A stretch of 64,000 nucleotides of DNA, taken from positions 248,001-312,000 of the forward strand of contig JAUCSC010000001.1 of NCBI GenBank assembly GCA_030445265.1, given 5' to 3'. The stretch is from Candidatus Saccharimonadota bacterium. GTDB lineage: Bacteria; Patescibacteriota; Saccharimonadia; Saccharimonadales; Saccharimonadaceae. The translations under genes were made by a program, and so were the position numbers. The notes beneath the pieces were generated by a model. It made no database searches, had not been told where the DNA came from, and worked only from the letters and a program-made list of their open reading frames with translations. Below, piece after piece: positions 26,293 through 48,384 of this stretch. Position 1 is the stretch's first letter. Each line of letters opens with the position of its first letter.

Positions 26293-26763
26293 GTGGAAAC
26301 ACAAGACAAGCACCTGACGCGGGGAGAGACGCAAAAGCTCCGTGAGCTACTCGACTCGGCAGTCAACATCTTTGTCCGAGTCTTCGACACAACCGATCCG
26401 GACACGATGGTGGAGGCGCAGAAGTACCTGCTCAAGCGCGGCTACTTTCTGAGCTACGCGGCGCACGATGCAGCGTTCTACTACCGCCTGGTCTTCCGGA
26501 CCATGAACGGCAAGTATGCCGACGAGGTAATGCTCCGTATCCTGCTCGACGGGACCTTCATGCCCCCCATGGCGTTGATGTTCCGCAGAAACAATGGGGA
26601 CGCGTTGCAACAGTACCGCCAACCTGGTCGCAGCAGCGTCATGGTCACAGATTCGGACGTGGCCGACGAAATGATCAGGACCTTCGAACGGCGATACATC
26701 GGTGGGGGATTCGTGCGCTGCTGGGTTCCCATCTTCGCTGGATCAACGCTCGCCGATATATAA
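26293..26763 (+). CDS. GC-rich orphan protein B, 156 aa (related to protein A)
   Basis: GTG start with TAGGAGA 5 nt upstream. No known family. The coding sequence is much more GC-rich than its neighbours. It has a helical N-terminus (LTRGETQKLRELLDSAVN), the segment MVEAQKYLLKRGYFLSYA, ALMFRRNNGD, and the end CWVPIFAGSTLADI. These align with protein A (20650-21105). It has its own promoter and a 3' hairpin whose sequence and flank match those of unit A. The two are therefore separate copies of one gene-plus-terminator unit that have diverged in the coding part. Confidence 0.75.
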   Translation: METQDKHLTRGETQKLRELLDSAVNIFVRVFDTTDPDTMVEAQKYLLKRGYFLSYAAHDAAFYYRLVFRTMNGKYADEVMLRILLDGTFMPPMALMFRRNNGDALQQYRQPGRSSVMVTDSDVADEMIRTFERRYIGGGFVRCWVPIFAGSTLADI

Positions 26764-37924: not shown

Positions 37925-38001
37925 GGGGCATTGGCACAGTTGGCTAGCGCGCTTCCATGGCATGGAAGAGGTCATCGGTTCGAATCCGATATGCTCCACC
38001 A
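37925..38001 (+). tRNA. tRNA-Ala (GGC), CCA encoded
   Basis: Acceptor GGGGCAT/ATGCTCC, anticodon stem CTTCC/GGAAG with loop ATGGCAT (GGC), T-arm ATCGG-TTCGAAT-CCGAT, and CCA encoded. Confidence 0.93.
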
Positions 38002-38333
38002 AACTGATTATGGTTATCACTATCAATAGTGGAACAACAGAGGCCACCATGTACCGATGGTGGCATTTCTGCATTCTGACCGAGATTCAACGGGTGACAC
38101 AGCGAGAGACCATTACAGGATCTGACCTCTAGCGGAGCGGTTCTAGTTAGGCACTCAAGGTGTCTATCGGTACGTGTTCGTGAGCCTTGTTGTGACAGGG
38201 GTGTCCTGTACCGATGCTGAATCTACTAACGCTTGACCTGTCGCACTGCGCTGTCATAATCAGGGGCAGATGGGCAAGAAGCGACAACTATTCACACCGT
38301 TGCGTAATACGTCCGAGAGACGGTGTGTTAATC
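38002..38333 (+). other. Gene-free junction between tRNA-Ala and island
   Basis: Holds a terminator-like hairpin GCCACCAT-GTACCG-ATGGTGGC (38043-38064). The decamer TGTACCGATG occurs twice (about 38050 and 38207). A larger inverted pair, ATCGGTAC (about 38166) with GTACCGAT, encloses ACAGG-GGTGT-CCTGT. No gene is seen. No duplicate of the tRNA-Ala 3' end was found at the far side of the island. Confidence 0.5.
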
Positions 38334-40961
38334 ATGACTAGCGATGGTTGGGCGAAGTTCTGGGCTGTTGACCTACACGTGCACACACCGGGCTCTGGCG
38401 ACGCTAAGGCCGAAGATTTTGGCACCGCTGAGAACATTGTTAATGCGGCCCTTGGCGCTGGCTTGCATGCGATCGCCGTTACAGATCACAACACTGCATC
38501 GTGGGTCGATCAGATGACTGCAGCAGCCACAGGCACTGATTTAGTCGTTCTTCCTGGCTTCGAGCTGAGCACACCTCAGGGGCACCTGCTGGGTATCTGG
38601 GAAGAGGGAACGTCCTCGGCAGTGCTTCAGGATGTCCTTATTCGTGTGGGTATTGCTCGAAACAAATTCGGCAACTTGGATGCGCTTACTGCCAAGAGCA
38701 TGAGCGAGTGTGCGCAGGAGATTATTGCTGGAGGCGGTATTGCCATCGCCGCTCATATCGATAAGGAAAAGGGGATCCTAACCCAGCCGGTACAGACTCA
38801 CGTCAATCAGGTACTGGCTGATCTCAATATCTCGGCATTCGAGTATGTGAAGACCGAGACTCCCGCAAAGGTAGAAGCCAAGCTGAATGGTGCTCGTCAG
38901 CCGGCCCTCGTGCAGAGTTCCGATGCCTACGACGCCTCGCTGAGCCGACATTCTGTGACTGCGATCGGAATTCGACGAACCTGGATCAAAGCAGCGCGAC
39001 CCGACCTGTGTGGTCTTGAATATGCACTAGACGATCCAGATCTACGTGTCACACTGTCGGATCCGGCCTTGCTCCCAGCGCATCCAACCATCGATTCGGT
39101 TTCTATCTCCGACGGATTCCTCGCTGGTGTCGCTATCGACCTCAGTCCAGATCTCAACGCCCTGCTCGGGGGTACCGGAGTTGGAAAGTCTTTGGTTCTC
39201 GAGGCGATCCGCTTTGCCCTCGCACAGCAGGTTGATGGCGCGGTTTTCAAGACCATTTTTGATGAGGTAGATCACCGACTGGAGCTAGCGCTCCGTACCG
39301 GCACCGACGTAATTGTTCAAATTTCCGCCTCTGACGAGAAGTACCGGATTACACGCACCTACTCGACAGTCGTCTCCAAACCAAGAGTCGAACAGAAAGT
39401 CGATGGCGATTGGATTGAGATCGACCGAACACCAGCCTCGCTACTCGGGATCGCATCCTTCTCGCAGGGAGAAATCCTCGAATACGCACGCGAGCCCGTT
39501 GGACGGGTAGGCCTCGTCGATGCACATCTTGATTTATCCGGGATAGAGGAGCGGGTCACTAATGCAGAAGACGCGCTCCGCGCGAACGCTGGCAAACTCA
39601 TCGCCTCTAGAAATCGAGTCGCCGAACTGACGGAAAAGTCAGCCAAGGTTACTGAGTTGAAAGAGCGTGAACGGGTGCTCTCTGAACTTTTCGATGCCGA
39701 GCTAGTGAAATCCCAACGTCTTTGGACCGCTGAACAAAGTACCATCGCAACACTTGCTGAGCAGGTAGAAGGCGTCAGATTCAGCAGACCAACCGAGCCT
39801 GACGCAGTATCGACAAGCCTCTCGCCACAGCACGATAAGCAATTCGAGAGTATCCGCATCGCAAGGGAAGCTTTGTCGACGGCAATTGAAGATGCTAAGA
39901 AGCTGGTTGATGCCAGCCTTGAATCCCTTAAGACGACCGTCGAAGGAGTTCGCACCGAGTTCAACGCTGAGTACAAAAAGTTTCAGGCAAAGCTCGATGA
40001 ACAGGTCGAGAAAAGTGGCGGCACATCGTTGCGGAGCTTGCGTCGCGAACTGGAGACTGTCCAAACCGATCTTGGCTTAGCGAACGTTGCCTCGGACGAA
40101 CTAAAAAGGGTTGCGCAGCCGGCGCTGAAGACGCTGACGGAAGATCGAGAGACCTTACTAACGCAGCTAAAACAAGCTCGTGATGATCGACGTACACTGC
40201 GCCGCGGCCGTGCACGCGAACTCAACACCAAGACTGCCGGATTTGTGAAGATCGACATTCCCAGCCATGGAGATACGTCCAAGTTCCGTGTAGAGCTTGA
40301 GGTTTTAAAGGTCGGATCTCATGTACAGGAGCGAGTTCTCGATCTCATTGCAGAGAAGGTCCATCCTTATCAATTTGTTCGAGCTGTTTGGAGCGGAGAT
40401 CCGACTCAGATTGGCACCCTACCTAATGGTGTCACCGCCACCGATATCTCAAGACTGATCACGAATATTGCCGACAAAGATTTGAGCGAACAGCTTTTGG
40501 AATGTCAGCTGGTCGATACTCCAGATGTGCTTGATGTGAAATTCAAGAAGCCAGAGGGCGGCGACTACGTTAACATCGAAGACCTTTCCCACGGTCAGAA
40601 ATGCACCGCGATCCTAGTGATCCTTCTCGCCGATGGCGAAAATCCAGTACTCGTCGACCAACCCGAAGATGCCCTTCATGCACCATGGATTGAGGAGTAT
40701 TTAGTCAACCGCTTGCGTGAACTTCGGGGCACACGACAATACATCTTCGCTACTCGTAGCTCTGGCCTGGTGGTAAGTGCTGACGCTGAACAGCTGATTA
40801 CAATGCGCGCAACCGCGGAAAAGGGAGAAATCGAAGCCAGTGGCTCATTGGAGCGTCATGACTTGAACAAACTGGCTCTTCATCACCTGGAAGGCGGAAA
40901 GATTCCGTTCGGGCGGCGCACTAGAAAGCTTCGATCGTCTATTTCCGACGTGATCTCTTGA
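38334..40961 (+). CDS. PHP-domain / SMC-like ATPase fusion (TrlF-like)
   Basis: N-terminal PHP metallo-hydrolase domain: DLHVHTPGSGD (H15, H17), AVTDHN (51-53), GFELST...GHLLGI, AAHIDKEKG and a late SSDAYD aspartate. Next comes an SMC/Rad50-type ATPase split by a coiled coil: Walker A GGTGVGKS (about 279-286), coiled coil about 400-640, signature LSHGQ (about 751-755), and Walker B VLVDQPEDALH. Such fusions are DNA/RNA-acting enzymes often found in defence contexts; activity here is inferred. ATG 38334 was chosen; the 40 residues from 38214 are not domain-like. It lies 332 bp after tRNA-Ala in an accessory island. Confidence 0.85.
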   Translation: MTSDGWAKFWAVDLHVHTPGSGDAKAEDFGTAENIVNAALGAGLHAIAVTDHNTASWVDQMTAAATGTDLVVLPGFELSTPQGHLLGIWEEGTSSAVLQDVLIRVGIARNKFGNLDALTAKSMSECAQEIIAGGGIAIAAHIDKEKGILTQPVQTHVNQVLADLNISAFEYVKTETPAKVEAKLNGARQPALVQSSDAYDASLSRHSVTAIGIRRTWIKAARPDLCGLEYALDDPDLRVTLSDPALLPAHPTIDSVSISDGFLAGVAIDLSPDLNALLGGTGVGKSLVLEAIRFALAQQVDGAVFKTIFDEVDHRLELALRTGTDVIVQISASDEKYRITRTYSTVVSKPRVEQKVDGDWIEIDRTPASLLGIASFSQGEILEYAREPVGRVGLVDAHLDLSGIEERVTNAEDALRANAGKLIASRNRVAELTEKSAKVTELKERERVLSELFDAELVKSQRLWTAEQSTIATLAEQVEGVRFSRPTEPDAVSTSLSPQHDKQFESIRIAREALSTAIEDAKKLVDASLESLKTTVEGVRTEFNAEYKKFQAKLDEQVEKSGGTSLRSLRRELETVQTDLGLANVASDELKRVAQPALKTLTEDRETLLTQLKQARDDRRTLRRGRARELNTKTAGFVKIDIPSHGDTSKFRVELEVLKVGSHVQERVLDLIAEKVHPYQFVRAVWSGDPTQIGTLPNGVTATDISRLITNIADKDLSEQLLECQLVDTPDVLDVKFKKPEGGDYVNIEDLSHGQKCTAILVILLADGENPVLVDQPEDALHAPWIEEYLVNRLRELRGTRQYIFATRSSGLVVSADAEQLITMRATAEKGEIEASGSLERHDLNKLALHHLEGGKIPFGRRTRKLRSSISDVIS

Positions 40962-40998
40962 CGAATAGCCAGCGGGCCTTCATAGTGATCCGTCCCTC

Positions 40999-41409
40999 AT
41001 GGCACGGCTCACTAATCACGTCTATCTGCTGCAGCACCATCAACTAAAGAAGGAATGGTCATCGTCAGGCGGTGGCGCCTTCGTCATGTTGAGTCCCACC
41101 GAACAGTGGACCCTTCACGCCTACTACGAGTTCACCAAGTCACTGTCAGACGCCGAGCTCATCACGCACCGTCGTCGCATCAGCCAATCGCAACCGTCGT
41201 TGCCACATCGCGCCGGCAAGGCAGTCGCGAAGCTCGCTGTGTTCACCGATCGGCTCGAGGCGTACCGCGCACGGCCGCGAGTTCGAACCCGGAAGAAAGG
41301 CGCCCCATACGAAGTGCGCATCTTCAGTGAGGTGAATATGAATATTGATCCGGTCGAGTTTGCGCGGATCCTGATACAGGCAGCCAAAGAGCGGAGCGAT
41401 CAGGACTAG
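40999..41409 (+). CDS. Hypothetical partner of PHP-ATPase, 136 aa
   Basis: Unrecognised soluble basic protein: MARLTNHVYLLQHHQLKKEW at the start, an arginine-rich middle (HRRRISQSQPSLPHRAGKAV, RARPRVRTRKKG), and a helical end. It follows the PHP-ATPase by 37 bp in the same direction and is probably co-transcribed. The basic character would suit nucleic-acid binding. It may be a second component of the same system (inference from position only). Confidence 0.6.
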   Translation: MARLTNHVYLLQHHQLKKEWSSSGGGAFVMLSPTEQWTLHAYYEFTKSLSDAELITHRRRISQSQPSLPHRAGKAVAKLAVFTDRLEAYRARPRVRTRKKGAPYEVRIFSEVNMNIDPVEFARILIQAAKERSDQD

Positions 41410-41720
41410 ATGCAGTGCTTTTTACAACCATTAGCGCTGTAGGCATGCGCAGGATCTGATCTGTTACATGTGTGCCTTTGGGTGGGTGGATCGCTCAAGG
41501 TACTTCCCAATTCCGCCGTTGACTCTTGAGCTTGAATGATTCAGATTGTGGGCATATGGCCCAAGTGGAAAGACAGGAAAGGATTACTGAACGAACGCGC
41601 GTCACGTTCACATTCGAGCGTGAAGTTACTCGATCCGTGGGCAAGGGTCATGTAGCCGGATCGAAACTTGTCGTTGTTTTTACCATCATCCAAATCCTTC
41701 TTCAGACGTGCGACTTCTTC
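41410..41720. other. Gene-free stretch within island
   Basis: No convincing gene, RNA or repeat seen. One short frame (41526-41732) has no start signal or recognisable composition. Confidence 0.5.
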
Positions 41721-42176
41721 CTAAAGCCGTGATCGTCCGTGCGTGTCCCGGAACCGAACACCGCGCTCACGAAGTCGACTGTGAATCGTGTGACCATCAA
41801 AGCCGAGGCGGGCAGCGATCTTGGCGACGGATAGACCTTGCTCGTACAAGCGGACCGCCTGATCGATTTGCGAGTAGCTCATCGATTTTGGTCGGCGTGT
41901 AACCGAAGCACGATTGAGCTGTTCAATCACCGTGGTCTTGCTAATGCCGAGTTCAGTCGCAATTTCGACGACTCGACCGCCTGCTTCGTAAAGTGCGACG
42001 ATCTGCTGTCGATCGCGCATCGTCACTTTCTTGGCGCCACGGGGGAGCGGTGAACGAGCAGCTCGCCTTGTTTTCGATGTCTCGGCTCGTTCAATCAGCT
42101 CTAAGAGGTCAGATGTGGCTGAAGACCGATTCGAGTAAGCCCGCAGGAGCCCCACCAAGCATTTACATAATGCCAT
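41721..42176 (-). CDS. Double helix-turn-helix recombinase-type DNA-binding protein
   Basis: Two successive helix-turn-helix units: QQIVALYEAGGRVVEIATELGISKTTVIEQL and QAVRLYEQGLSVAKIAARLGFDGHTIHSRL, ending RGVRFRDTHGR. This arrangement and the DTHGR ending resemble the DNA-binding tails of actinobacterial resolvase/recombinase-related proteins. No catalytic serine-recombinase domain is present, so it is either a remnant or a free-standing DNA-binding protein. A stop codon lies immediately before ATG 42176. It is divergent from the GC-rich gene at 42323 and overlaps that gene's promoter. Confidence 0.7.
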   Translation of the reverse strand: MALCKCLVGLLRAYSNRSSATSDLLELIERAETSKTRRAARSPLPRGAKKVTMRDRQQIVALYEAGGRVVEIATELGISKTTVIEQLNRASVTRRPKSMSYSQIDQAVRLYEQGLSVAKIAARLGFDGHTIHSRLRERGVRFRDTHGRSRL

Positions 42177-42190
42177 TTACATGGTATTAT
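42162..42190 (+). promoter_or_regulatory. Promoter of GC-rich unit C
   Basis: TTTACA (42162-42167), 17-bp spacer, TATTAT (42185-42190). Gives a leader of about 125 nt with hairpins CCTGCAC/GTGCAGG and CTCGT-GGAA-ACGAG. Confidence 0.6.
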
Positions 42191-42322
42191 TTTTTTACTC
42201 AATCAATGGTTGAGGCCGCTGCTACCTAGGCGCGGTGTAGAAGTTTCGTCTTTGTAAGCTTGAACTCCTGCACCGTGCAGGCACTCGTGGAAACGAGAAC
42301 ATCATAGAAATGGGTGAGATTG

Positions 42323-42679
42323 ATGACTGAAAACGAGAGCGAACCAAGGCCGGTTCCTGCTACGGCGATTCACGGCGTCATGCCGATGCACGGCCAGACG
42401 TTCAATCTGGCTGAGGCAGCACAGGTGATCATGGCGCGCGACCCGGAGATGGGTCGGACGATGTGGCGGGCGCTTCTCAGCGGAGAAGCTGGAGACCGGC
42501 TACGGATCGAAGCCGAAGAGCACCTGTGGTATCTGTTCTGGGAGATGATCGAGAACGTCGTCGTCCCGAACGGCCGGATCATCGAGGAGCTGATCGAGGA
42601 GGTCTGGCCGGACTACAAGCGCATCGCGCAGGTGGAATATGTCGAGGGCAAAGTCCTCGACGACGTCATCCTCACCTGA
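42323..42679 (+). CDS. GC-rich orphan protein C, 118 aa
   Basis: No known family. Strongly GC-rich codons compared with flanking murF-like gene. Acidic and helical: FNLAEAAQVIMARDPEMG, EEHLWYLFWEMIENVVVPNG, LIEEVWPDYKRIAQVEYVEG. No signal peptide. ATG 42323 was preferred over GTG 42314 because of the GGGTGA spacing and because MTENESEP begins the charged N-terminus. It has its own promoter, structured leader and 3' hairpin, like units A, B, D and E. Confidence 0.65.
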   Translation: MTENESEPRPVPATAIHGVMPMHGQTFNLAEAAQVIMARDPEMGRTMWRALLSGEAGDRLRIEAEEHLWYLFWEMIENVVVPNGRIIEELIEEVWPDYKRIAQVEYVEGKVLDDVILT

Positions 42680-45489: not shown

Positions 45490-48384
45490 ATGAAGCGCTA
45501 CAATCCTTCCGAAATCGAACCGAAGTGGCAGGCAGTCTGGGACGAACAGCAAGTCAACCACGTTGATGCTGACCATCAGCGCCAAAAACTATACGTTTCC
45601 GGCATGTTCCCGTACCCGAGTGGAGCTGGTATGCATACCGGCCACGCCTTCAGCTATTCGATCGTCGATGCAATCGCGCGCTTTCACCGCCAGCATGGCA
45701 TGAATGTCCTTAACCCAATGGGCTGGGACACCTTCGGATTGCCAGCGGAAAACTATGCGATCAAGACAGGTACTCAGCCAGCGGCTGCCACCGAAATCAA
45801 CATTGCGAATTTCAAGAAGCAATTTAAGCGCATGGGCGTCAGTATTGATTGGCACCGGGAAATAAACACCACTGACCCAGAGTATTACCGCTGGACACAG
45901 TGGGTATTTACAAAGCTGTTTGAGCGTGGCCTGGCCTACCAAAAAGAGAGCCTCCAGTGGTGGTGTCCTGTCGACAAAACGGTGCTTGCGAATGAGCAGG
46001 TCGAAGGCGGCCATTGTTGGCGCTGCGGCAGCTTGGTTGAGAAAAAGTCGATGAAGCAGTGGTTCTTTAAGATCACCGAGTATGCCGACGCGCTGCTGGA
46101 TGAAATCGAGGATTTGGATTGGCCACAAAAGATTAAGACAGCCCAGACGAACTGGATCGGAAAGTCACAAGGCGCAGAGATTGAGTTTTCGCTTTCGGAA
46201 AATGGGGCTGCAGATGTTTCTTCAAACGCGACCTCAATTTCCGTCTTCTCAACTCGACCGGATACGATTTTCGGTGCTACGTTCTTAGTGATTGCGCCAG
46301 AACATCCGCTGGTTACCTCACTTACGACTGATGAGATGCGTGAATCAGTCGAAAGCTACGTCAAAGACGCCGTCAAGAAGTCTGAAATCGATCGGATGAA
46401 CGACACAAAGGAAAAGACCGGCGTATTTACGGGCAGCTACGCAGTCAATCCAGCAACCGGAGAAAATATACCCGTCTGGGTGGCGGATTATGTTCTGACT
46501 GGCTACGGCACGGGTGCAATCATGGCTGTTCCGGCGCACGATGAACGTGATTATGCATTTGCCGAAAAGTTTAAGCTGCCGATTATTAATGTGATAAATC
46601 CTTCCTTCGGTGAACCGCAGGGTGATGAAACGCATAAAGTCGGCGTGAATATTGCTTTACGCGATCCAAAGACGGATAAGGTTGTCGTCCTCGATTGGGG
46701 CCCACGTCGTGAACGTTCCGGAGGCATGATGCTTATCGGTGGCGGTGTCGACAATGATGAAGATATCGTCGAGTGCGCCATACGCGAAATTGCTGAAGAA
46801 ACTGGCTATACCGACGTCCAACTTGTGGCGCGGTCGGAGGCAATCGGCCGAGGCTATTTCTATTCCAATGTAAAAGACAAGAATTATTCGATTGATGCGC
46901 ATGGTCTTTATTTTGAACTGGTGAGTGACAAGCAGGAGGACACGAATCTTGATGAAGGTGAAAAAGAAAAGTTCACGGTTACGTGGCAACCGACGGACAA
47001 AGTGGCTGCCATGCTTGACGACGGGATTCACCGCTACTTCTTTGAAACGCTCGTAGAGGGCAAAAGTTATCACGGCGAAGGACTGTTAGTAAATAGCGGC
47101 GCCTTCAATGGCATGAGTACCAGTGATGCCCGGGAAGAGATTGTCGACTGGCTTGAGCAACAAGGCACCGGACGATCAATGATTACCTACAAGATGCGTG
47201 ACTGGCTGATCAGCCGGCAACGATATTGGGGCGCGCCGATCCCTATCATTCACTGTGAGGAGCATGGAGCTGTTCCTGTCCCCGACGATCAATTGCCGGT
47301 CGTGCTGCCAGTTGTTGAAGACTTTGCACCGAAGGGTGACGGCAAATCAGTCTTGGGCCGCGTTGAGGAATGGGTCAATACGACCTGCCCGACCTGCGGT
47401 GGGCCAGCAAAGCGTGAAACCGATACAATGGACGGGTATGCCTGCAGCAGCTGGTATCTTCTTCGTTACGCCGATCCACACAATGACGTACAGGCCTGGG
47501 ATCCAGAGAAAGCAAACTACTGGGCACCAGTTGACTACTACGTAGGCGGCGACCATGCCGTTGCTCATCTTTTGTATGTGCGTTTTTGGACGCATGTCTT
47601 CCATGACATGGGACTGACTCAATTTAAGGAGCCGGTAAAGAAACTGGTTTACCATGGCTATATTAATGCCGAAGATGGCACAAAGATGAGTAAGAGCAAG
47701 GGTAACGTGATCGATCCACTCGACATTATTGATCAAGGCTATGGTGCCGATGCACTTCGTACCTATGTGCTCTTCATGGGACCCATCGAACTTGATGCCG
47801 CCTGGGACTCACGAGGCATCGCTGGGGTATACCGGTTCCTCAACCGCGTATGGACGCTCACACAGCAATATCTTGATGCTGACAAAAACCAGACAAAGAA
47901 CGACGAGGCGGTGAAGGTAGCAATGCACCGTGCGACGAAGAAAGCGACCGATGATTATCGCCGCCTCAGCTTTAACACGGCAATTGCCGCGCTCATGGAA
48001 TATACCAACGAGCTGTATAAGTATAAGATTGATGGCTACTCAGATACGGTCTGGCGTGAAGCACTCTCGCGGCTGGTGCAGCTGGTTGCTCCGGTGGCTC
48101 CGCACATTGCCGAAGAGCTTTGGCATCAATTGGGGCATGACTCGTTTATTCAAAATGCCCCGTGGCCTACCTGGGACGACGCTTTGACTGAAAATGAATC
48201 GATAACTATCGCCGTACAGGTGAATGGTAAGCTCCGCGGCGAAGTGACGCTCGAGAAAGATGCGAGCGAAGATGATATCAAAGCAGCTGCGCTATCTCAC
48301 GAAAATGTGGCAAAGTTTTTGGACAATAAAGAACCGACCAAGATCATATATATCCGTGGTCGGCTCGTCAGCATTGTCGTTTAG
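45490..48384 (+). CDS. leuS: Leucyl-tRNA synthetase with inserted Nudix domain
   Basis: Charges tRNA-Leu. HxGH signature is HTGH (49-52), with CP1 editing motifs GTGAIMAVPAHDERDYAFA (D-R-D) and KMSKS (732-736). A C-terminal anticodon domain is followed by a VQVNGKLRGEVTL tail. Between FKLPIINVI (about 362-370) and GEGLLVNSG (about 529-537), where E. coli LeuRS has about 20 residues, there are about 150-160 residues. These contain a complete Nudix box: GG near 417, then E, and REIAEETGY (432-440). 964 residues versus about 860 in E. coli reflects this insert. TACAAT gives a 3-nt leader. Confidence 0.95.
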   Translation: MKRYNPSEIEPKWQAVWDEQQVNHVDADHQRQKLYVSGMFPYPSGAGMHTGHAFSYSIVDAIARFHRQHGMNVLNPMGWDTFGLPAENYAIKTGTQPAAATEINIANFKKQFKRMGVSIDWHREINTTDPEYYRWTQWVFTKLFERGLAYQKESLQWWCPVDKTVLANEQVEGGHCWRCGSLVEKKSMKQWFFKITEYADALLDEIEDLDWPQKIKTAQTNWIGKSQGAEIEFSLSENGAADVSSNATSISVFSTRPDTIFGATFLVIAPEHPLVTSLTTDEMRESVESYVKDAVKKSEIDRMNDTKEKTGVFTGSYAVNPATGENIPVWVADYVLTGYGTGAIMAVPAHDERDYAFAEKFKLPIINVINPSFGEPQGDETHKVGVNIALRDPKTDKVVVLDWGPRRERSGGMMLIGGGVDNDEDIVECAIREIAEETGYTDVQLVARSEAIGRGYFYSNVKDKNYSIDAHGLYFELVSDKQEDTNLDEGEKEKFTVTWQPTDKVAAMLDDGIHRYFFETLVEGKSYHGEGLLVNSGAFNGMSTSDAREEIVDWLEQQGTGRSMITYKMRDWLISRQRYWGAPIPIIHCEEHGAVPVPDDQLPVVLPVVEDFAPKGDGKSVLGRVEEWVNTTCPTCGGPAKRETDTMDGYACSSWYLLRYADPHNDVQAWDPEKANYWAPVDYYVGGDHAVAHLLYVRFWTHVFHDMGLTQFKEPVKKLVYHGYINAEDGTKMSKSKGNVIDPLDIIDQGYGADALRTYVLFMGPIELDAAWDSRGIAGVYRFLNRVWTLTQQYLDADKNQTKNDEAVKVAMHRATKKATDDYRRLSFNTAIAALMEYTNELYKYKIDGYSDTVWREALSRLVQLVAPVAPHIAEELWHQLGHDSFIQNAPWPTWDDALTENESITIAVQVNGKLRGEVTLEKDASEDDIKAAALSHENVAKFLDNKEPTKIIYIRGRLVSIVV

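Follow-up and report, generated by a model that had tools for sequence, protein, structure and literature searches.

Integrons hold arrays of gene cassettes at a fixed site with a promoter, and the integrative mobile elements exploiting Xer (IMEX) integrate at dif sites in a XerCD-dependent manner. Here we describe a small element at a transfer RNA (tRNA) gene that has features of both, in a 64,000-nucleotide stretch of DNA (the window) from a Candidatus Saccharimonadota bacterium of the family Saccharimonadaceae (contig JAUCSC010000001.1, positions 248,001 to 312,000), which is probably an epibiont. By comparison with related loci, positions 38002-42157 of the window are a single integrated cassette of 4.2 kb at the 3' end of a tRNA-Ala gene. 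It comprises, in order, a left-end element, a cargo gene, the gene for a protein of 136 amino acids (aa) termed p136, a convergent gene for a DNA-binding protein with two helix-turn-helix (HTH) motifs termed dHTH, and a mimic of the tRNA CCA end. Cassettes of this layout were found at genes for tRNA-Ala, Val, Leu, Gln and Lys, both in Saccharibacteria and in Actinobacteria, the latter being the phylum of the known hosts of Saccharibacterial epibionts. We infer mobility and antiviral function from comparative evidence: very probably, a circular form of the cassette is moved site-specifically at tRNA ends, with a recombinase likely supplied in trans and a cargo that is mostly antiviral. The cassette family is apparently undescribed; no description of such cassettes came up in a literature search, whose coverage included no bioRxiv preprints and few subscription papers.

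Comparison with described systems

The cassettes resemble those of integrons in being tandem and exchangeable, downstream of a fixed site, and in having a promoter-bearing end; tandem cassettes with common ends were found in loci L093, L090, L094 and L022. Unlike integron cassettes, each has its own end element and dHTH gene and usually p136, and the anchor is a tRNA gene; no IntI-like gene was seen in the cassettes, where no search aimed at IntI was made. With IMEX they share small size and the lack of a recombinase gene, and the palindromic core of the left end suggests use of a host recombinase. The targets differ, however, being tRNA ends here and dif in IMEX, and Xer use by the cassettes is a proposal.

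Islands targeted to tRNA genes (Islander type; PMC4383910) are likewise inserted at tRNA 3' ends, keep the tRNA whole, vary in cargo and have their far end marked by a fragment of the tRNA end. The cassettes have the corresponding structure, with 11 of 13 left ends starting where an intact tRNA gene ends and a tRNA fragment at the far end. They differ in showing no integrase gene, in sharing an end of 6-8 nt, in forming tandem arrays and in having two uncharacterised core proteins. For the three cassette proteins of the window, no integrase was found among the Pfam and NCBIfam matches listed.

A preliminary description of this region, made from the sequence letters, had placed a tRNA-adjacent island at 38002-42200. 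These limits nearly coincide with those of the element, which starts at 38002, directly after tRNA-Ala(GGC) on the + strand (37925-38001), and the three genes that it named are in place: an 875-aa PHP-ATPase, a 136-aa open reading frame (ORF) and an HTH ORF (41721-42176, - strand).

The left end

The left end is conserved over about 230 bp in 13 aligned islands, with the order palindromic core, AACAGAGG with a hairpin, ACCYCTGTT, a T-arm-like GGGTTCGAGTCCC and the inverted pair CGGTACAT/ATGTACCG. Core palindromes comparable to that of the window were seen by eye at the same position in most other islands, and when the left end was folded as RNA only the inverted pair of sites appeared. The 11 Saccharibacterial left ends mentioned above begin directly past the CCA of a tRNA-Ala (4), Val (3), Leu (2) or Gln (2) gene, as judged with ARAGORN; the other two lie at a contig edge (L021) and behind a damaged tRNA (L048). 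The possibility that such a sequence follows any tRNA-Ala gene was rejected, since it is absent from each of 15 other tRNA-Ala loci (among them L065, which has an N gap within the tRNA).

A hidden Markov model (HMM) built from the 13 rows, all of them Saccharibacterial, was used with nhmmer. It matched the window, itself a training row, at E 1e-26, and found previously unseen left ends in 8 of 14 loci (L088 and L090-L102), situated either at junctions between cassettes or at the end of a tRNA-Lys or tRNA-Ala gene; further left ends were found in L106, L142 and L143. A second model (A12) was built from nine rows, with L021, L025, L048, L049 and L050 left out, and an alignment with actinobacterial rows (A11) was set aside because three rows were misaligned. 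The nine-row model matched the window's own genome, again a training row, at 1.2e-11, and 16 of the 295 genomes of the window's family, 13 of these being among the 15 p136-positive genomes. One new left end, in genome G241, lies directly past a tRNA-Ala gene and is followed by a dHTH gene and a Mur-ligase gene resembling one beside the window's cassette; another, in G143, is about 1 kb from tRNA-Pro. The match in G185 is weak, covers 35 bp and has nothing further beside it, and the copies in G205 and G163 resemble remnants.

Past the left end of the window's cassette there is a promoter-like sequence, TTGAC-N16-CATAAT, with a nearly letter-for-letter copy in L090 (Micrococcales) and similar sites in L023, L091 and L094. 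Among 24 left ends examined, the majority show no more than weak promoter matches.

The right end and the dHTH gene

The element closes on the right with the dHTH gene, whose start coincides with the mimic of the tRNA 3' end. In the window and several other islands, the reversed CCA together with the next base reads TTG, which is probably the dHTH start codon; a longer alternative begins with ATG at 42176. The first residues of dHTH would thus probably be encoded by the attachment site, and with the CCA mimic taken as the right end the window element closes at 42157. In all eight islands compared, the terminal 6-8 nt are identical to the end of the target tRNA. These right ends track the isotype, being CCAGCCA in Gln islands, CGCACCA in Leu islands and CCACCA in Ala and Val islands; one of the eight, L048, has a damaged tRNA whose type is not assignable. 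By eye, the match extends to 9 nt in L090 (tRNA-Lys) and 11 nt in L140.

Two Pfam families, HTH_23 and HTH_7, each match dHTH twice. The protein had been regarded as a double-HTH protein of recombinase type; the repeats are confirmed and the recombinase assignment is not, no recombinase catalytic domain being present among the 25 of 44 Pfam matches listed or the NCBIfam matches listed. A dHTH gene follows p136 in all 15 loci from L088 to L102; the same pairing holds for 9 of the 10 Saccharibacterial loci whose p136 is full-length. A minimal cassette in Flexivirga (L095, 7193-8541) consists of a left end, a 253-aa ORF and a dHTH gene with a single HTH, and has no p136.

The p136 protein

By the company its gene keeps, p136 belongs to the cassette and is no partner of the ATPase. 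Most p136 loci lie near tRNA genes of differing isotypes and have unrelated neighbours, usually with a convergent dHTH gene. The 136-aa protein had been proposed as a partner of the ATPase, to be checked by the conservation of its neighbourhood; that comparison shows dHTH recurring beside it and the ATPase not, and p136 accompanies dHTH and many unrelated cargos.

The view of p136 as an unrecognised protein agrees with our searches, as no Pfam or PHROGs match better than E 0.01 was obtained among 19 members. Searched by tblastn, the window p136 has no match among 50,697 records of phages and 72,556 of plasmids, a scan of viral contigs gave 27 p136 pattern matches of which none is a relative, and p136 was not found on the Gordonia plasmid that holds a TrlF-like gene. 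The p136 model is predicted to be all-alpha (mean predicted local distance difference test score, pLDDT, 83.7). Foldseek returned no match at E<=0.001 for it in the PDB or viral collections (best E 4.2 and 0.65). The best VIA-align match was to FAT domains (Z 3.9, 84 aligned residues, root-mean-square deviation 4.6), followed by one to a sigma-A segment (Z 3.8), both Z values being of a size that helical models reach by chance; the VIA-align matches listed include no recombinase. Residues R3, H40 and D117 are invariant in 19 p136 sequences, and Y9, Q36 and R58 nearly so; the truncated p136 of L023 was left out of the p136 alignment (A3).

Cargo genes and cassette arrays

Judged by profile matches, the cassette cargo is mostly antiviral systems. 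Cargo proteins were picked by hand, mostly as the largest ORFs and with small ORFs left out, and 18 of the 20 chosen have a PADLOC match at 1e-5 or better. SIR2 and HerA cargos occur in both phyla. Others match GajA and GajB (Gabija), a CBASS cyclase, SduA (Shedu), PDC-S06, a type II restriction endonuclease and methyltransferase, and OLD-like and AriAB ATPases; weak, generic ATPase or helicase matches in L023, the second cassette of L090, the third cassette of L093 and L092 are counted among the 18. The SLATT-like/nucleotidyltransferase cargos of L025 and L093 are just 23% alike. Three tandem cassettes are present in the Gordonia locus L093, the left end of the first lying in L106, and L090, L094 and L022 have at least two head-to-tail cassettes each. 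Sequenced isolates with arrays include Gordonia sp. ABSL11-1 and Microbacterium sp. Leaf151.

The cargo of the window is a TrlF-like protein and a probable antiviral effector. Its open frame spans 38214-40961 (915 aa); the start at 38334, giving 875 aa, is preferred because it agrees with the start of the Gordonia homologue described below. The protein shares with the TrlF and Ppl ATPases an N-terminal PHP domain followed by a C-terminal ABC-type ATPase, and residues 47-907 of the 915-aa frame align with positions 3-944 of the TrlF profile NF045780, almost its full length. It differs from them in falling under both curated cut-offs, with 336.3 of 350 bits (E 6e-100) for NF045780 and 204.7 of 1000 bits for the Ppl profile NF042955. 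Among Pfam families, AAA_21 and AAA_23 are above their cut-offs and PHP is just under (25.9 against 26.4 bits). The PADLOC search gave a match to Ppl (E 2e-40, 136.6 bits, residues 48-656), and the defence role thought plausible at the outset is kept as a prediction from sequence. By analogy with Ppl and TrlF, the ATPase would be a sensor of invading nucleic acid or of the way it is processed, while the cutting of nucleic acid or nucleotides would fall to the PHP domain.

In the plasmid collection, the best relative is a protein of a Gordonia hongkongensis plasmid (48% identity over 866 aligned columns); the second among the matches listed has 29% identity. The D-loop of the window protein had been suspected of being altered. 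The motif DQPEDALH is present as described, and DQPEDALHAPWI is identical in the Gordonia plasmid homologue, while four remoter homologues read DQPEDNLDN, DQPEDMLDN or DQPEDNLDS. A peculiarity of the window protein was thus rejected, and the change is a trait of a subfamily. Among 100 relatives including the window genome, the full-length ATPase is found in the window genome only, so it is not a universal chromosomal gene. Partial matches, with at most about 123 aa aligned, occur in 8 of the 99 others; the best of them, in G071 and G008, come from more distant members of the family. In a sample of 296 genomes from an actinobacterial class, 3 have a relative at E <= 1e-30, with 27-29% identity. 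A more distant TrlF-family gene in G071 (L027, 9143-11995, - strand) lies a few kb from an arrangement of a serine-recombinase-like ORF with tRNA-Asn.

Distribution in two phyla

Matches to p136 were found in 8 of 100 relatives (window included), in 15 of the 295 genomes of the window's family, and in 5 of 379 genomes of a phylum sample, all five within that family. Scanning 84,980 species genomes gave 18 p136 loci: four in Saccharibacteria/Saccharimonadia, one in a metagenome-assembled genome (L088) and 13 in Actinobacteria. Prevalence in a sample of the actinobacterial class is 5 of 394, centre included, with only about 10 candidates scored per genome. In G545, a genome from that class, the HMM built on Saccharibacterial left ends finds a left end directly past tRNA-Ala (E 3e-34).

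The p136 tree intermixes both phyla. A single Saccharibacterial clade is rejected (approximately unbiased test, p 0.0035), and the starred branches require at least two changes between phyla; L088 ('bacterium isolate BP4.bin56') was treated as Saccharibacterial by assumption. Between the phyla, cargo identity is 68% for HerA and 49% for SIR2. The cassettes have a GC content of 50-54% against 45-49% in their surroundings in six Saccharibacterial loci, and of 57-60% against 67-75% in six actinobacterial loci; two loci deviate, L096 (55% against 51%) and L143 (51% against 46%). The tree, the cargo identities and a cassette GC content between the ranges of the hosts together point to exchange of cassettes across phyla.

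Proposed mechanism and alternative explanations

We propose that the cassette moves as a circle, and that strand exchange would take place within the 6-8 bp that the mimic has in common with the 3' end of the tRNA; this would explain the choice of target and would leave the tRNA intact. The repeated GTACCGATG/ACCYCTGTT sites would be bound by dHTH, which would control recombination as well as its own expression; p136 may act as a second nucleoprotein or directionality factor, and the left end would supply the promoter for the cargo. Carrier genomes G015 and G278 each have one Phage_integrase-family gene and no Resolvase gene, which, with the lack of a recombinase in the cassettes, calls for an enzyme in trans or a new one. 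It would most likely act in trans, and the leading candidate is a tyrosine recombinase of the Xer type encoded on the chromosome.

Several observations weigh against this mechanism. No site-specific recombinase was found in the cassettes (in the window among the Pfam and NCBIfam matches listed, in the others by eye), and neither a Phage_integrase nor a Resolvase gene was found in the genome of the window, which is 77.55% complete. The terminal match in the window is only 6 bp (CCACCA), weak evidence taken alone, and the window has no direct repeat of at least 14 bp. In L024 there is a p136 and no dHTH within the stretch read, and some cassettes (L095, L140) have dHTH without p136, so that a cassette may not need p136 or may be served by one in trans. 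Two of the 20 cargo proteins have no PADLOC match, the cargo of L140 includes a prepilin-like gene, and L023, L026, L051, L052 and L054 are decayed copies. Excision, the circle and recombination are themselves all predicted.

A satellite nature of the cassettes, with movement in trans by the integrases of prophages or conjugative elements targeting the same tRNA ends, is somewhat unlikely. Directly left of the damaged tRNA of one cassette (L048, on C12 of G233) lies a prophage-like region that includes a tyrosine recombinase, serine-recombinase-like ORFs overlap tRNA genes in several genomes, and the actinobacterial carriers are rich in integrases; the single Phage_integrase gene and lack of a Resolvase gene in G015 and G278 nevertheless speak against satellites, as do the phage and plasmid records, where p136 was not found, and the viral contig scan, which gave no relative. 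The same two genomes leave few alternative enzymes should p136, with dHTH, be a new kind of site-specific recombinase that makes each cassette self-sufficient. This we consider quite unlikely, although p136 is the commonest cassette protein besides dHTH, has the three invariant residues and, in the window, belongs to no Pfam or PHROGs family: its invariant residues could be structural, its small all-alpha model has no clear fold match, and it is missing from some cassettes. Also unlikely is the reading that the cassettes represent mobile elements of a new class: self-contained antiviral arrays, integron-like and anchored at tRNA 3' ends, in which p136 with dHTH is the recombinase and the attachment site writes the first codons of the regulator dHTH. 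If it were true, entire defence systems would travel with the arrays from one of the two phyla to the other.

Left ends and dHTH genes recur in arrays and decayed copies exist, as would suit immobile relics exchanged through natural transformation and homologous recombination at these sequences. Such relics are nonetheless very unlikely, because exact CCA junctions at several isotypes, with isotype-matched right ends, call for site-specific recombination. A single defence unit of ATPase and p136, functioning as a pair whose position at the tRNA is incidental, is hardly credible. Their genes are adjacent on the same strand with a 37 bp gap, but cargo swaps contradict such a pair, p136 homologues standing beside unrelated cargos and with dHTH, and the plasmid with the Gordonia TrlF-like gene yielded no p136; the pair was rejected.

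Features of the window locus and other observations

Table 1. Coordinates of the cassette features in the window, and of serine-recombinase-like ORFs in other loci
Feature	Coordinates	Strand	Basis
tRNA-Ala (GGC), intact, integration target	37925..38001	+	ARAGORN
Left-end element, adjoins tRNA CCA	38002..38240	+	alignment with 12 other islands; nhmmer
Imperfect palindrome TGATTATG-GTTAT-CACTATCA, candidate recombination core arm	38005..38025	.	sequence
GC-rich hairpin directly past tRNA, one ATGTACCGATG copy inside	38043..38064	.	scored on - strand
Exact ATGTACCGATG motif within GC-rich hairpin	38049-38059
Inverted pair of GTACCGATG-type sites, candidate protein-binding sites	38165..38216	38165-38175 -, 38206-38216 +	9 consensus pairs, 2 double changes
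Sigma-70-like promoter TTGACC-N16-CATAAT, putatively for cargo	38233..38260	+	consensus match only
TrlF-like PHP + ABC-type ATPase, cargo, 875 aa	38334..40961	+	NF045780, PADLOC Ppl, Gordonia homologue
p136, element core protein, predicted all-alpha	40999..41409	+
dHTH, two-HTH DNA-binding protein	41721..42158	-	ORF to 42176, Pfam
Right end ATTCGAGTA ... GGAGCCCCACCA, tRNA-3'-end mimic	42129..42157	.	last 6 nt = tRNA-Ala end
Serine-recombinase-like ORF, L024	2169-3755
Serine-recombinase-like ORF, L051	12866-14437
Serine-recombinase-like ORF, L027	14100-15665
Serine-recombinase-like ORF, L108	7421-9850

Just beyond the right end lies a GC-rich ORF of 121 aa (42314-42679, + strand; GC content at third codon positions, GC3, 0.79). 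Small GC-rich ORFs adjoin islands in L020 and L023 too, and the leader CTGCACCGTGCAGGCA of the 42314-42679 region is common to L023 near 9669; this and similar ORFs are possibly a second kind of small cassette. Another ORF (26293-26763, + strand) has a GC3 of 0.76, most window ORFs being at 0.4-0.6, and the leader was not seen beside it. A leucyl-tRNA-synthetase-like ORF (45490-48384, + strand) has an insertion that by eye resembles a NUDIX box (GGGVDNDEDIVECAIREIAEETG). In Saccharibacteria and one actinobacterium, ORFs resembling large serine recombinases have frames that overlap genes for tRNA-Gly, Met, Asn or Pro; this is an integration arrangement distinct from that of the cassettes.

Significance

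Since the cassettes can be recognised by their ends and core genes, unassigned genes within them can each be ranked as candidates for defence, and the search for the missing recombinase is now a well-defined question open to experiment. Use of the cassettes as tools for integration into the genomes of Saccharibacteria and actinobacteria is also conceivable. For genome-reduced epibionts, small cassettes with defined ends would provide a concrete route for the acquisition of antiviral genes.

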